Positions 25,367-31,752 of a DNA stretch of 64,000 bases are shown in pieces. The first letter of the stretch is position 1. The number at the start of each line of letters is the position of its first letter. The stretch lies in assembly GCA_944323505.1 (NCBI GenBank), contig CALUST010000008.1, positions 1 through 64,000 of the forward strand. Reading direction: 5' to 3'. The translations under genes and the position numbers were made by a program. Under the pieces are notes generated by a model. The model was not told the DNA's origin. It did no database searches and worked only from the letters and a program-made list of their open reading frames with translations. Source of the stretch: an uncultured Bacteroidales bacterium (GTDB lineage Bacteria; Bacteroidota; Bacteroidia; Bacteroidales; UBA932).

Positions 25367-26296
25367 ATGATGAAACCTACACTTTTGGTCTTGGCTGCCG
25401 GCATGGGCAGCCGTTACGGCGGATTGAAACAGATGGACGGTCTCGGTCCGAACGGAGAAACAATCATCGACTATTCAATTTACGATGCGGTACAGGCCGG
25501 CTTCGGCAAGGTTGTCTACATCGTAAGGGAATATTTCAAACCTCAGTTCGAGGAACTTGTACAGAAGAAATACAGTCACGTGAAATGCACGGACGGCACT
25601 CCTCTCAAGTTTGAATTTGCCGTCCAGGAACTTGACAAGATTCCTGCAGGAATGACATACAATCCTGAAAGGCAGAAGCCTTGGGGCACAGCCCATGCAG
25701 TACTCATGGCAAAGGACATTGTCAAGGAGCCGTTTGCCGTCATCAACGGGGACGACTACTACGGCAAGGAGTCATTCGCCATCATCGCAGACTGGCTCAG
25801 GGCTCATGAGCATACAACAGGACATTACTGCATGGTAGGCTTCGAACTCGACCACACACTGTCCGAGTCCGGCGGAGTGTCAAGAGGTATCTGCTCGGCT
25901 GATGCAGGACATTTCCTCACCCATGTCGAGGAACATCACAACATCGCCAAGGCAGAGGACGGCAAAGTCTACGGGGACAACAGCAAGGGAGAGAAGGTAG
26001 AACTCGACGGAAAGGCCCTTGCCTCAATGAACATGTGGGGCTTCACACCTGATTATTTCGAGAAGAGCGAAGCCATCTTCAGGGACTTCATCGAGAAGAA
26101 CCGCAACGAACTCAAGGCTGAATTCTACATCCCGTATGCAATCGACTGCATGATAAAGGACAATTCAGCCAGGACAGAACTCCTCTCGACCCCGTCACAC
26201 TGGTTCGGAGTCACCTTCAAGGAGGACAGGCCGGGAGTGGTAGCCAAGTTCCAGGAATTTGCCGACAAGGGCATCTATCCTTCCCCACTGTACTAG
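25367..26296 (+). CDS. Sugar-nucleotide-type nucleotidyltransferase
   Basis: A 309-residue GT-A-fold nucleotidyltransferase. The NTP-binding loop is LVLAAGMGSRYGGLKQMDGLGPNGE and the metal site is in AVINGDDYYGKE. Related proteins are UTP/dTTP-glucose-1-phosphate transferases, but this group (long YGGLKQ loop, PHWFGVTFKEDRPGV-like end) lacks a firmly assigned substrate. Start ATG 25367 or the adjacent ATG 25370. A terminator hairpin follows the gene. Confidence 0.85.
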   Translation: MMKPTLLVLAAGMGSRYGGLKQMDGLGPNGETIIDYSIYDAVQAGFGKVVYIVREYFKPQFEELVQKKYSHVKCTDGTPLKFEFAVQELDKIPAGMTYNPERQKPWGTAHAVLMAKDIVKEPFAVINGDDYYGKESFAIIADWLRAHEHTTGHYCMVGFELDHTLSESGGVSRGICSADAGHFLTHVEEHHNIAKAEDGKVYGDNSKGEKVELDGKALASMNMWGFTPDYFEKSEAIFRDFIEKNRNELKAEFYIPYAIDCMIKDNSARTELLSTPSHWFGVTFKEDRPGVVAKFQEFADKGIYPSPLY

Positions 26297-27302: not shown

Positions 27303-28094
27303 TCACAGCAGACTGCTGCACAATGCCTCGGCCTCCCGGAGTGACTGGAGTTTACCTACATCGACAAGATGCAGATTCCGGGCCTCCACTCCATATATGG
27401 GACAATCGGCGGCCACCTTGAGATAGAAGTCCATTATCGGAAACCGCTCTCCGAGAGGGTCAATACCCAAGGCCTCCGCTTCCCTGTCATACCGGTCCAT
27501 CACATCGAATATCCTGTCAGAGATGTGATGAATCCCTGAAAATGCAAGCCTGCGGCAGGAGTCGGGATCAAGCCCGCGATAAGGTGTCCTCACCTCACCT
27601 GTCGATACATTCTGCCATCCGACAAGTCTCATGTCCCTGTCAAAAAGCAGATAGCGGCTTGTCTTCCTGTCGCTTACAAGCAGGTTGGCGAGCGCGCCCT
27701 GACGACATTCTGAGGCAAACCACGCGAGGTCAAGATCAGAAATGATGTCTACGTTATGCACGAGGAAACTTCCATCTGCCATGCCGTGGCTCCCTTCCTC
27801 TTCAAGCCATTTTCTTGCATGGCGGATACCGCCTCCGGTCTCCCGCAGAAGATCCCTTTCGTCCGAAATGCTGACCTTCATACCGAAATTCCCTTCCTGC
27901 AAAAGATACTGCTCAATCATGTCGGCAAAATGATGGACATTGACCACGATCTCGTCATAGCCGAAAGACTTCAGCCTCATCATCACGTGATACAGGAGCG
28001 GCTTCCCGCACAACGGGACAAGAGCCTTCGGAAGAGAGTCCGTAAGTGGTCTGAGTCTTGTGCCGAGACCTGCAGCGAATATCATTGCTTTCAT
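27303..28094 (-). CDS. MurU-like sugar-1-phosphate nucleotidyltransferase
   Basis: A 263-residue GT-A nucleotidyltransferase: MKAMIFAAGLGTRLRPLTDSLPKALVPLCGKPL is the NTP-binding region and FLVHNVDIISDLDL the metal-binding Asp. It is closest in layout to MurNAc-alpha-1-phosphate uridylyltransferase (MurU) and to mannose-1-phosphate guanylyltransferases. The gene directly upstream in the same operon encodes an AmgK-type sugar kinase, which favours the MurU reading: kinase makes the sugar 1-phosphate, this enzyme makes the UDP-sugar for peptidoglycan recycling. Confidence 0.85.
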   Translation of the reverse strand: MKAMIFAAGLGTRLRPLTDSLPKALVPLCGKPLLYHVMMRLKSFGYDEIVVNVHHFADMIEQYLLQEGNFGMKVSISDERDLLRETGGGIRHARKWLEEEGSHGMADGSFLVHNVDIISDLDLAWFASECRQGALANLLVSDRKTSRYLLFDRDMRLVGWQNVSTGEVRTPYRGLDPDSCRRLAFSGIHHISDRIFDVMDRYDREAEALGIDPLGERFPIMDFYLKVAADCPIYGVEARNLHLVDVGKLQSLREAEALCSSLL

Positions 28095-28116
28095 AATGTA
28101 CCCTTGTTGCCAATGT

Positions 28117-29598
28117 TCAAAGCTCCCTTGTCACGCCCTGCTCCCTGTGCACCACAGTCACACGGACATCAAAGGCTGATGCTATATGCGCGGCTGTCCT
28201 CTCGGCGCAATATACCGAACGGTGCTGTCCTCCGGTACATCCGAAACATATCATCATGTGTGTGAAACCACGCTGCATAAATCTCTCCACATGGGCATCG
28301 GCAAGGTCCCATACATGTCCGAGAAATACAGGTACCTCCTCCTTGTCGGCAAAGAAATCAATCACTTCGGCATCCATGCCATTGTACTGCCGGTAATATT
28401 CGTATTTCCCCGGGTTCGGCAATGCCCTGCAGTCGAAGACATAACCGCCACCGTTCCCTGACGGGTCATCGGGGAGACCTTTCTTGTAGGAGAAACTGCA
28501 CACAAGCACGTGAAGCCTGTGACTTTCATGACCGTCGGAGGATTCAGTACCGGCAGGCGCCTGCTGTCCCTGATACTGCGGCAGCGAAGAGAGATCTCTC
28601 AGCAACGGCACAAGATAGGCATAACCGGCCGGAGGCTCTTCAAGAAGCCTGCGGAGATTGGCCATCGCATACGGTATGCTCTGCAGGAAATGCAGTTTCC
28701 TCTCGAAGTTGCCGCGGAATCCGTACGCCCCGAGCACCTGCAGCGTCCTGAACAGCACGAAAAGCCTGAGCCTCTCCTTGAACAGGCCCCTGTCAATCCG
28801 CGCATATTCTCCTGCGGCATCGAGCCACGCATCAACAAGCCTGTCCTTCAGTCTTTCCGGATAACCCGCCTTCGCCTGCCAGACGAACGAGGCGACATCA
28901 TAATACACCGGACCTTTTCTCCCCCCTTGGAAATCTATGAAATACGGGACGCCGTCCTTGAGCATCACGTTGCGAGCCTGGAAGTCCCTGTACATGAACT
29001 GCCGGAAGTCTTCCGACATGAGGTCGGACGCGAAGAGTCCGAAATCCCTGTCAAGGGCGGACTCATTATATCCTATTCCTGACGGTTTCAGAAGACAGAA
29101 TTTGAAATAATTGAGATCCGACATCACAAGCCTGCGGCCGAAAGCCGGTTCGGGATAGCAGAGGTTGAAATCAAGGCCTTCCGCTCCGGCATACTGGATC
29201 TCAGGCAGAGCAGAGACAGCCTCTGTCAGAAGAGATTCCTCGTCTTCGGAATACTCCCCTGCAGCCCGCCCCGATGACACTGCATCGAACAGGGAGATGT
29301 CTCCGAGGTCCTCCTGTATATATGACATCCCGTCCTGACTGACAGCGAACACTTCCGGGACATTCACACCCTTGCCCCTGAAATGTCTGTCCAAAGCAAC
29401 AAACGCCGCATTCTCATTCCTGTCTGTCCCGGCGCAGCCAATATATGAGCCATGCCCGTCTGTCATACGGAAATACCTCCTGTTGCTGCCTGAAGTGGAG
29501 AGCGGTGTCATGCTTTCCGGCTCATGGCCGTAAAATGACTTGAAAAGGGATGCAAGGGCATCTTCTCCTGTCCTCAAAGTATCTTTATCAAATGTCAT
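28117..29598 (-). CDS. AmgK-like sugar kinase fused to RapZ C-terminal domain
   Basis: A 493-residue two-domain protein. Residues about 15-330 are an aminoglycoside-phosphotransferase-fold kinase resembling AmgK (anomeric MurNAc/GlcNAc kinase): STSGSNRRYFRM ATP loop, catalytic loop FMYRDFQARNVM (Asp205, Asn210; the usual first His is Tyr203) and metal Asp222 in FIDFQGG. Residues about 362-485 match the C-terminal domain of RapZ: CSFSYKKG, FDCRALPNP, IGCTGGQHRSVY-type motif at 452-463, VVHREQ. RapZ's P-loop N-terminal domain is absent. In E. coli the RapZ C-domain senses glucosamine-6-phosphate; here it is joined to a cell-wall sugar kinase. The MurU-like gene follows after 22 bases. Start ATG 29598. 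Confidence 0.87.
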   Translation of the reverse strand: MTFDKDTLRTGEDALASLFKSFYGHEPESMTPLSTSGSNRRYFRMTDGHGSYIGCAGTDRNENAAFVALDRHFRGKGVNVPEVFAVSQDGMSYIQEDLGDISLFDAVSSGRAAGEYSEDEESLLTEAVSALPEIQYAGAEGLDFNLCYPEPAFGRRLVMSDLNYFKFCLLKPSGIGYNESALDRDFGLFASDLMSEDFRQFMYRDFQARNVMLKDGVPYFIDFQGGRKGPVYYDVASFVWQAKAGYPERLKDRLVDAWLDAAGEYARIDRGLFKERLRLFVLFRTLQVLGAYGFRGNFERKLHFLQSIPYAMANLRRLLEEPPAGYAYLVPLLRDLSSLPQYQGQQAPAGTESSDGHESHRLHVLVCSFSYKKGLPDDPSGNGGGYVFDCRALPNPGKYEYYRQYNGMDAEVIDFFADKEEVPVFLGHVWDLADAHVERFMQRGFTHMMICFGCTGGQHRSVYCAERTAAHIASAFDVRVTVVHREQGVTREL

Positions 29599-29644
29599 CT
29601 GTTTCAATTTTTGTCCGGAAGACAAAATTACTAAGAAAAAAGAC

Positions 29645-29671: not shown

Positions 29672-31159
29672 ATGCTTGAAATCGCATATTGTTCCGACAA
29701 GTACCAATATACAATGGGAAAGTCATTCTATGAAAGCGGGATGAAAGACAAGACCGCCATCTTCAATCTTTTCTACAGGAAAGCCCCGGAGAACAACAAC
29801 TGGGCAGTCGTGAGCGGCGTTGAGGAAGTGATTGAAATGATAAGGAATCTGGGCACGATGCCTGAAGAGTTCTATGAGAAGTTCCTGCCTGGTGAGGAAT
29901 ATGCCGGATTCAGGAGGTATCTCTCGTCCATGAGATTCACCGGGAACGTCTACGCGATGAGAGAGGGAGAGATAGCGTTCCCTTCCCAACCTGTGATAAT
30001 AGTAGAGGCCCCGATGATAGAGGCGCAGGTGCTTGAGACACCGATGCTCTGCATTATGAACCACCAGATGGCAGTGGCCACAAAGGCATCCAGAGTGTGC
30101 CGTGCCACCAACAGGCCGGTAAGCGAGTTCGGCTCCAGGCGGGCGCACGGGCCATGGGCGGCGACATACGGGGCCAAAGCAGCCATCATTGCCGGATGCA
30201 GCAACACATCAAACATCCTGACAGGAGTGATGTTCGGCTGCGGGTCCACAGGGACTATGGCCCACAGTTACGTGACATCTTTCGGATGCTCTGTCGAAGG
30301 CGAGTTCCATGCATTCGACACATACATCAAGACCCATATAGGCGAGCCGCTGATTCTTCTGATAGATACATACGACTCCCTCAAATGCGGCATTCTGAAT
30401 GCCATAAGGGCATACAAGGCCAACGGCATCGACAATTCCTACGGGCCGGGGTACGGCATCAGGCTCGACAGCGGCGACCTCGCATACCTGTCATGCGAAT
30501 GCCGGAAGATACTGGACAGGAACGGATTCGACGGATGCCGGATCTTCGCGACCAACTCACTTGACGAGTATCTGATTTCAGACCTCGAACGGCAGGGCGC
30601 CTGCATTGACTCCTACGGTGTCGGGGACGCCATCGCCACCAGCAAGGCCAACCCATGTTTCGGCAATGTCTACAAACTGGTGCAGATTGACGGCCAGCCT
30701 GTGCTCAAACGTTCTGAAGACAAGGCCAAACTGATCAATCCAGGGTTCCAGATTACATACAGGATCACGAAGAACAGCCCGGACAAAGGTGAAATCTTCA
30801 AGGCTGACGTCACCTGCCTGAGAGGAGATGACCTTGCCCTCAAGATAGAGAACGGGGAGACATTCACCGTCTATGACGAGAACGACAGGTACAAGTTCAA
30901 GACCTTCGAGGCAGGGGAATATTCCGCCAAGCCTCTCCAGCACCAGGTCATCCGCAACGGGGAAAGATGCGTGCCGGAGCACACTCTCATGGAGAAGAAG
31001 GCCTACTACGACAACACTCTGAGGCATTTCAGCCCGAGCGAGAAAAGGCTCATCAATCCACATTATTATAAAGTGGACATATCGGACTCCCTTTATGACC
31101 TGAAGATGGAGATCATCAACAGGCTCACAAGGGAAATCAACGGATTCAATCTCAGATAA
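29672..31159 (+). CDS. pncB: Nicotinate phosphoribosyltransferase
   Basis: Makes nicotinate mononucleotide from nicotinate and PRPP in NAD salvage. The 495-residue protein has CSDKYQYTMGKSFYESGMKD and NLFYRKAP at the N-terminus, the active-site SEFGSRRAHGP (catalytic His region), a TSFGCSVEGEFHAFDTY segment, and GIRLDSGDLAYLS for phosphate binding. The ATG at 29672 is used because the -7 box lies just upstream; longer in-frame reading overlaps the promoter and the divergent kinase gene. pncA follows after 2 bases. Confidence 0.95.
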   Translation: MLEIAYCSDKYQYTMGKSFYESGMKDKTAIFNLFYRKAPENNNWAVVSGVEEVIEMIRNLGTMPEEFYEKFLPGEEYAGFRRYLSSMRFTGNVYAMREGEIAFPSQPVIIVEAPMIEAQVLETPMLCIMNHQMAVATKASRVCRATNRPVSEFGSRRAHGPWAATYGAKAAIIAGCSNTSNILTGVMFGCGSTGTMAHSYVTSFGCSVEGEFHAFDTYIKTHIGEPLILLIDTYDSLKCGILNAIRAYKANGIDNSYGPGYGIRLDSGDLAYLSCECRKILDRNGFDGCRIFATNSLDEYLISDLERQGACIDSYGVGDAIATSKANPCFGNVYKLVQIDGQPVLKRSEDKAKLINPGFQITYRITKNSPDKGEIFKADVTCLRGDDLALKIENGETFTVYDENDRYKFKTFEAGEYSAKPLQHQVIRNGERCVPEHTLMEKKAYYDNTLRHFSPSEKRLINPHYYKVDISDSLYDLKMEIINRLTREINGFNLR

Positions 31160-31161
31160 CG

Positions 31162-31752
31162 ATGAAAAATTCTGCACTGGTAGTCGTGGACATGCTGTAC
31201 GACTTCATTGACGGCTCCCTCGCATGTCACAATTCAGAAAATGCTGTAAACGAGGCTGTCAGGTTCATCGACAGGATGACTTCAGGACAGGAGGGGGACG
31301 GAAATGAGGAGATACTTGACACATTCCCTATTCTTTTCGTATGTGACCATCACCCTTCAGATCATTCCTCATTCAGGGAATATGGAGGGACATGGCCTCC
31401 GCACTGCGTGGCAGGGACACATGGAGGGGCAATCCATGAGGCGCTGCAGCCATACGCACAGGAGGAACTCACATTTCTGAAAGGATGTGACAGGGAGAGG
31501 GAGCAATACTCAGGTCTTGATGCAGTCAACGGTGCAGGACAGACTCTCGGGGACATCCTCTGCCTGCTCGATACCACCGATGTGTATGTGTGCGGGATAG
31601 CCACCGAATACTGCGTCCGGTCAACATGTGAGGACCTGATGAAGACAGGGATGAAAGTGCATCTCGTCTCTCCGGCTCTTGCCTACGTCGATGAGTCCGG
31701 ACACCGCAAGGCTCTCAAGGAAATGGCTGCAGAAGGAATCTCCATAGAGTGA
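31162..31752 (+). CDS. pncA: Nicotinamidase
   Basis: Hydrolyses nicotinamide to nicotinate, feeding PncB. The isochorismatase-fold protein of 196 residues shows catalytic Asp in VVDMLYDF, metal-binding CDHHPSDHSSF, WPPHCVAGT, and nucleophile Cys in GIATEYCVRST. The gene starts two bases after the pncB stop, so both are cotranscribed as a salvage pair. Confidence 0.96.
   Translation: MKNSALVVVDMLYDFIDGSLACHNSENAVNEAVRFIDRMTSGQEGDGNEEILDTFPILFVCDHHPSDHSSFREYGGTWPPHCVAGTHGGAIHEALQPYAQEELTFLKGCDREREQYSGLDAVNGAGQTLGDILCLLDTTDVYVCGIATEYCVRSTCEDLMKTGMKVHLVSPALAYVDESGHRKALKEMAAEGISIE

Follow-up and report, generated by a model that had tools for sequence, protein, structure and literature searches.

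The salvage of N-acetylmuramic acid (MurNAc) through AmgK and MurU bypasses the target of fosfomycin (PMC7670621, PMC5790795). For beta- and gammaproteobacteria an either-or relationship between MurQ and AmgK has been stated, and co-occurrence reasoning led, in the same study, to the discovery of MupP, a MurNAc-6-phosphate (MurNAc-6P) phosphatase of the HAD family (PMC5371407), which has also been reconstituted in Escherichia coli (PMC5371409). Tannerella forsythia has neither MurA nor MurB and is held to rely on AmgK and MurU in building its wall (PMC7670621, PMC5790795), and Escherichia coli expressing the T. forsythia AmgK and MurU has served as the positive control for labelling with MurNAc probes (PMC13041923, preprint). 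The C-terminal domain of E. coli RapZ, in turn, binds glucosamine-6-phosphate (GlcN6P; PMC9841335). Here we analyse a 64,000-nucleotide stretch of DNA from an uncultured Bacteroidales bacterium (contig CALUST010000008.1 of assembly GCA_944323505.1; hereafter the window), in which a single gene joins an AmgK-like kinase to a RapZ C-terminal domain (RapZ_C) and is followed by a gene for a MurU-like uridylyltransferase. The locus shares with the AmgK/MurU systems of Pseudomonas and Caulobacter the APH fold, the invariant Asp, Asn and Asp residues, the adjoining MurU gene and the role of an alternative to MurQ, but differs from them in the added RapZ domain and in scores far below the AmgK cut-offs. 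To our knowledge, the Pseudomonas and Caulobacter AmgK proteins have no RapZ domain. In the portions of the open-access PubMed Central (PMC) literature to which our search was limited, no description of a kinase-RapZ_C fusion was found. The fusion is a real and widespread variant of the AmgK/MurU module, undescribed as far as we searched. Our preferred reading, as yet unproven and given a probability of about 0.38, is that its RapZ_C domain is a cysteine-dependent sugar-6-phosphate phosphatase which fills the MupP step.

The sequence-only reading of the window had proposed a kinase fused to RapZ_C and coupled to MurU, and the fusion is borne out by the single open frame as well as by Pfam and NCBIfam. 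On the fused protein, the Pfam family APH (PF01636) matches residues 30-266 with 57 bits (cut-off 23.2) and RapZ_C (PF22740) matches residues 362-486 with 110 bits (114.6 bits for the domain taken as residues 358-493; cut-off 27). The top NCBIfam kinase model is AmgK (NF045759; 63 bits, E = 2.5e-17), whose equivalog cut-off of 550 is not reached; there are two NCBIfam AmgK models, with lengths of 324 and 360 positions, and the protein reaches 63 bits where one requires 550 and 21 bits where the other requires 500. NCBIfam RapZ (NF003828) aligns solely with its C-terminal part, at 98 bits and below its cut-off of 244. For the neighbouring protein the top NCBIfam model is MurU (NF045761), with 111 bits against an equivalog cut-off of 250, and the top solved relative by sequence is 4y7t (E = 1.8e-19), a record titled nucleotidyl transferase that we take to be Pseudomonas putida MurU. 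Because these scores stay below the equivalog cut-offs, the proteins are called AmgK-like and MurU-like throughout. The proposed coupling of the two is upheld at this family level by the best models and by adjacency, the MurU-like gene lying, as that reading had it, 22 bases after the stop of the fused gene. The AlphaFold2 model of the fused protein (mean predicted local distance difference test score (pLDDT) 92.1, predicted template modelling (TM) score 0.71) places a disordered linker at residues 348-358. The modelled kinase domain has 3csv as its top Foldseek match (E = 1.2e-12), which is also the best match by sequence, and the separately modelled RapZ_C domain (pLDDT 94.9) matches E. coli RapZ (5o5q_A) with a TM score of 0.86 and a root-mean-square deviation of 1.6. 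A PHROGs scan of the latter domain gave a single weak match, annotated as an ATPase.

A fusion by chance or by misassembly can be rejected, since further genera and named genomes show the same architecture. We used a sample of 218 genomes for the order Bacteroidales and one of 198 genomes for the phylum Bacteroidota (for both, at least 95% complete except the window's own genome), order and phylum being taken from named relatives. The kinase is present in 184 and RapZ_C in 172 of the 218 order genomes, and the kinase accompanies RapZ_C in 172 of 172 cases; across the phylum RapZ_C was found in 24 of 198 genomes. A set of 61 genomes that includes the window's own holds the kinase in 54 and RapZ_C in 44, with one match each. 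Among 150 RapZ_C matches listed, 140 lie in frames of 398-750 amino acids (aa) and ten in short frames of 132-161 aa. A separate RapZ_C gene stands directly after the kinase gene in nine inspected loci and in a tenth, L156: in three the two frames are parted by an in-register stop (L035, L052, L069), in two the kinase, RapZ_C and MurU are three neighbouring genes (L083, L084), and four more are likewise split (L128, L136, L137, L140). The exception is a stand-alone RapZ_C gene (L080, 1486-1887) with neither kinase nor MurU within its stretch.

A scan of named genomes, run with one pattern from the RapZ_C domain and one from the kinase and biased toward hits carrying both, returned at least 592 confirmed relatives, the best 80 of which comprise 79 fused genes and the split locus L156, which also has MurU. 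Within these best 80, MurU is no more than 300 bases away on the same strand for 50 of the 79 fused genes and elsewhere in the stretch for seven; it is missing from the stretch for 22, three of them with little downstream sequence. The commonest other neighbouring cluster occurs in only 7 of the 80 loci. The search for the two-domain architecture and its neighbours that the sequence-only reading had suggested thus finds the fusion in other genera, often with MurU adjoining. Among the named carriers are Phocaeicola plebeius, Parabacteroides chinchillae, Bacteroides timonensis, Hoylesella buccalis and Leyella lascolaii, as well as Alloprevotella rava, which has no MurU in its stretch.

Three observations stand beside this distribution. 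The module was also met in metagenome-assembled genomes (MAGs) labelled Ignavibacteriales, Sulfotelmatobacter, Acidobacteriaceae/Acidobacteriota, Calditrichaceae, Elusimicrobia and Delongbacteria (L146, L147, L151-L153, L156-L158, L177, L186), which may reflect either lateral transfer or contigs that were binned wrongly. The record OY725990.1 (L249), labelled as a plasmid of Phocaeicola massiliensis, carries an intact fused gene, 52% identical to that of the window, together with a MurU-like gene; this record may be a fragment of the chromosome. Linear plasmids of Streptomyces and Nocardiopsis encode RapZ_C proteins that stand alone, are 131 and 125 aa long and have an intact Cys loop (L250, 586-981; L251, 595-972); their annotations read RNase adapter RapZ and pNPL.19.

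Conservation was assessed on 61 RapZ_C domains, 55 of them fused (the window's included) and six separate. The CTGG and HRS of the loop are invariant in 61 of 61 sequences, as are Asp182, Arg184, Asn188 and Pro189 (E. coli RapZ numbering), and position 251 in the loop is Gln in 56 and Arg in five; the invariant columns fall mostly in the loop, the FDCR and NPG motifs and a Gly-rich turn. With respect to the ligand pocket (H190, C247, T248, G249, H252, R253), all residues are retained except H190, which is Gly in all 61. The complete RapZ C-terminal motif set claimed from the sequence therefore stands as far as FDCRALPNP and GCTGGQHRSVY are concerned, but not at this pocket position. In a comparison of eight domains (two fused, and one each from E. 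coli, Azospirillum, Acetoanaerobium, Paracoccus, Streptomyces and Nocardiopsis), Cys247, Gly249, Gly250, His252, Arg253 and Ser254 are constant while His190 and Thr248 vary. The pocket loop thus forms the core that these domains share. Compared to E. coli RapZ, with which it shares the fold, the loop CTGG-x-HRS and the four invariant residues at 182, 184, 188 and 189, the fused protein has the kinase in place of the RapZ N-domain, Gly instead of His190 and an extra Gly-rich stretch before FVFD. A profile search with the RapZ N-domain family (PF03668) gave no match in the window's own genome, whereas the same search matched 6 of 14 control genomes.

On the kinase side, Asp205, Asn210 and Asp222, corresponding to the catalytic Asp and Asn and the metal-binding Asp of the APH fold, are present as claimed and do not vary among the 55 fused sequences, and within the catalytic loop the same holds for Arg204, Phe206 and Arg209. 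Tyr203, which had been singled out as an oddity deserving a test, is what the family usually has (Tyr in 42, Phe in 10 and His in 3 of 55 sequences) and was dismissed as a functional peculiarity, being the commonest residue at its position. In the order sample MurQ occurs in 30 of 184 kinase-positive versus 23 of 34 kinase-negative genomes (Fisher p = 4e-9, uncorrected for kinship), an anticorrelation as expected if the kinase serves an AmgK/MurU salvage route. For an AmgK-type role, sequence support is at the family level and genomic support is stronger.

According to our preferred reading, the fused protein and its neighbour would provide three activities. Homology and gene order support two of them, namely that the AmgK-type kinase would form MurNAc-1-phosphate and that the downstream MurU would turn it into UDP-MurNAc. 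The RapZ_C domain, with its loop C454-T-G-G-Q-H-R460-S, would strip the 6-phosphate off MurNAc-6P or a related amino-sugar-6-phosphate and the freed sugar would be handed to the kinase on the same chain, so that one protein could convert a 6-phosphate to a 1-phosphate. RapZ_C would in this way stand in for the HAD phosphatase MupP of Pseudomonas, whose proposed pathway position ahead of AmgK it would share while being unrelated to it by family.

C-x-x-G-x-x-R-S/T is the signature of Cys-dependent phosphatases. The RapZ_C loop fits this signature, and in the model it lies between a strand that ends at domain residue 97 and a helix that begins at 103, an arrangement common to the protein tyrosine phosphatase (PTP)-like enzymes. 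The RapZ pocket has been likened to the loop of Cys-phosphatases before, with GlcN6P hydrolysis being raised (PMC7199280). In E. coli RapZ this pocket takes up sulphate or malonate and has been proposed as the site for GlcN6P (PMC5737377, PMC9841335). The C247A and C247S variants abolish activity, the authors suggesting that the thiol may be catalytic, and in crystals with GlcN6P the pocket density resembled a transformed product (PMC9841335). A wider and quite tentative proposal is that RapZ C-terminal domains might make up an enzyme family not recognised before, whose members use a cysteine to remove the phosphate from amino-sugar-6-phosphates; the fusion would then supply the MurNAc-6P phosphatase that is missing from Bacteroidales salvage, and E. 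coli RapZ would be a phosphatase re-used as a regulator.

AnmK makes MurNAc-6P, and where MurQ is missing a phosphatase must work on this product ahead of AmgK. Among the 172 order genomes with RapZ_C, 117 have AnmK without MurQ, 17 have both, 13 MurQ only and 25 neither. AnmK is found in 134 of these 172 genomes versus 1 of 12 kinase-only and 8 of 34 kinase-free genomes. Counted by families in which at least half of the members have AnmK, the figures are 67 of 83 versus 1 of 6 (Fisher p = 0.0025). This pattern is what a MupP substitute would show and suggests a link to MurNAc-6P. As AnmK is clustered on the kinase tree and independent pairs are few, the association is suggestive rather than established. 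When MurQ was searched for, a frame of about 600-650 aa, a size that would fit GlmS, was weakly matched in many relatives, and there was no match at all in the window's own genome and in ten more from its genus; these genomes may lack GlmS, or assembly gaps may be involved, the own genome being 90% complete.

Kinases without RapZ_C occur in 12 of the 218 order genomes and in six more genomes of the window's own genus (72-95% complete), and a MurU-like frame adjoins the kinase in four of ten such loci examined in the order set. These natural kinase-only orthologues, several of them beside MurU, suggest that the kinase is able to do without RapZ_C in some lineages. On a kinase tree of 107 hand-chosen rows (83 fused, six split, 18 kinase-only), the RapZ state requires seven changes; supported branches alone force fewer (three for the AnmK-less kinase-only group). 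RapZ_C has thus likely been lost repeatedly, the number of losses being soft.

Several observations weigh against a phosphatase. The window's own genome, in which MurB is present, has neither AnmK nor MurQ, and both are likewise missing from 25 of the 172 RapZ_C genomes of the order sample. The kinase tree contains a clade of 49 rows (support 93) of which 47 lack AnmK and 39 of these keep RapZ_C, and AnmK as a strict partner of RapZ_C is therefore rejected for the window's own clade. A test of AnmK against RapZ_C on independent pairs was not significant (three pairs on supported branches, seven in total), most pairings having the identical AnmK state in both members, and one genome (G377) is kinase-only yet AnmK-positive. 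The pathway gap may also be filled some other way, a HAD-type MupP not having been searched for. At the structural level, RapZ_C shows no significant whole-fold match to PTP-like phosphatases: all 15 Foldseek matches at E ≤ 0.001 are RapZ, the dual-specificity phosphatase 2e0t appearing at E = 1.7, and a global PTP fold was thus not found. The invariant loop is also compatible with pure phosphate binding, and in the portions of the literature searched no measured activity of any RapZ_C domain was found. Finally, the tested C247 variants of E. coli RapZ also lose binding of GlmZ RNA (PMC9841335).

The closest rival is the one put forward by the sequence-only reading, namely that RapZ_C may gate the kinase and so exert a protein-level feedback on cell-wall sugar recycling; we widen the choice of ligand to GlcN6P or another amino-sugar phosphate. 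A catalytic role fits the data about as well as a sensor; we regard the latter as possible, albeit doubtful. The GlcN6P binding of the E. coli domain, the invariant phosphate loop and the strict company of RapZ_C with the kinase in the order sample are all consistent with it, and the retention of RapZ_C in lineages without AnmK is easier to explain by a sensor than by a MurNAc-6P phosphatase. However, a pure sensor does not obviously require the invariant Cys, the pocket residue His190 is Gly in 61 of 61 sequences (though this position also varies in other RapZ_C domains), kinase-only orthologues occur, and the association with AnmK would be left unexplained unless the ligand is MurNAc-6P.

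Less probable is a scaffold, in which RapZ_C would merely dimerise the kinase or dock MurU and bind no ligand. The C-terminal domains of E. coli RapZ do dimerise (PMC5737377, PMC9841335), and the gene order kinase, RapZ_C, MurU is recurrent. The invariant columns, in contrast, are mainly those of the loop, the two motifs and the Gly-rich turn, surface conservation being outside this comparison; we thus consider a scaffold unlikely.

A further alternative concerns the substrate, as the kinase and nucleotidyltransferase could serve another sugar (e.g. N-acetylglucosamine, N-acetylgalactosamine or a capsule sugar), in which case the link to MurNAc would be wrong. APH kinases are versatile, and both proteins score far under the equivalog cut-offs. 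AmgK and MurU are nonetheless the top-scoring models, and the MurQ counts given above speak for MurNAc, in line with the either-or stated for proteobacteria (PMC5371407). Moreover, one MAG assigned to Tannerella sp. (L165) contains the fused gene together with MurU, and the AmgK and MurU of T. forsythia function in E. coli (PMC13041923). The T. forsythia gene is not among the best 80 of the at least 592 relatives, where the Tannerella sp. MAG is, and this MAG suggests that T. forsythia AmgK is of the fused form. Another sugar therefore appears rather improbable.

RNA binding as in E. coli, for which homology, the path residues Lys170 (Lys or Arg in 59 of 61), Arg184 (61) and Arg196 (54), the inactivity of E. 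coli RapZ K170A (PMC9841335) and Arg in 58 of 61 at the RNA-near position 236 could be cited, is very improbable, since four of the seven basic residues named along the E. coli RNA path (PMC9841335) are mostly non-basic in the fused family (basic at Lys194 in 6, Arg211 in 8, Arg238 in 0 and Lys251 in 5 of 61) and no member of the RapZ N-domain family was matched in the window's own genome.

Table 1. Features of the fused gene and its downstream neighbour in the window.
Feature	Position	Strand	Remarks
Fused gene, AmgK-like kinase + RapZ C-terminal domain	28117..29598	-	Single open frame, 493 aa plus stop; Pfam, NCBIfam
APH-fold kinase domain	28594..29598	-	Residues about 1-335; Pfam PF01636, NCBIfam AmgK, AlphaFold2/Foldseek
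Catalytic loop YRDFQARN	28969..28992	-	Residues 203-210
Linker, partly disordered	28528..28593	-	Residues 336-357; pLDDT <50 at residues 348-358
RapZ C-terminal domain	28120..28527	-	Residues 358-493; PF22740, model, Foldseek
Phosphate-binding loop CTGGQHRS	28216..28239	-	Residues 454-461 = E. coli RapZ 247-254
Gap between fused gene and MurU-like gene	28095..28116		22 bases
MurU-like sugar-1-phosphate uridylyltransferase	27303..28094	-	263 aa; NCBIfam MurU, Pfam PF00483, 4y7t

The fused gene starts with the ATG at 29598, with an in-frame TTG further upstream at 29625. A scan for consensus promoters and terminators was uninformative, with three and four sites where shuffled sequence gave 2.2 and 1.9 on average. 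On the plus strand at 29717-31752, diverging from the fused gene, a nicotinate phosphoribosyltransferase gene is immediately succeeded by a nicotinamidase-like gene (Pfam, NCBIfam), a pair for the salvage of nicotinamide adenine dinucleotide. A further sugar nucleotidyltransferase-like gene is located at 25367-26296 (plus strand), which known families match weakly.

If most Bacteroidales salvage MurNAc via a RapZ-bearing kinase, the job of this domain would be part of the cell-wall sugar handling of a large order. The fusion offers a simple system for asking about the function of the RapZ pocket and of its essential cysteine, without the small RNA, RNase E and two-component partners.

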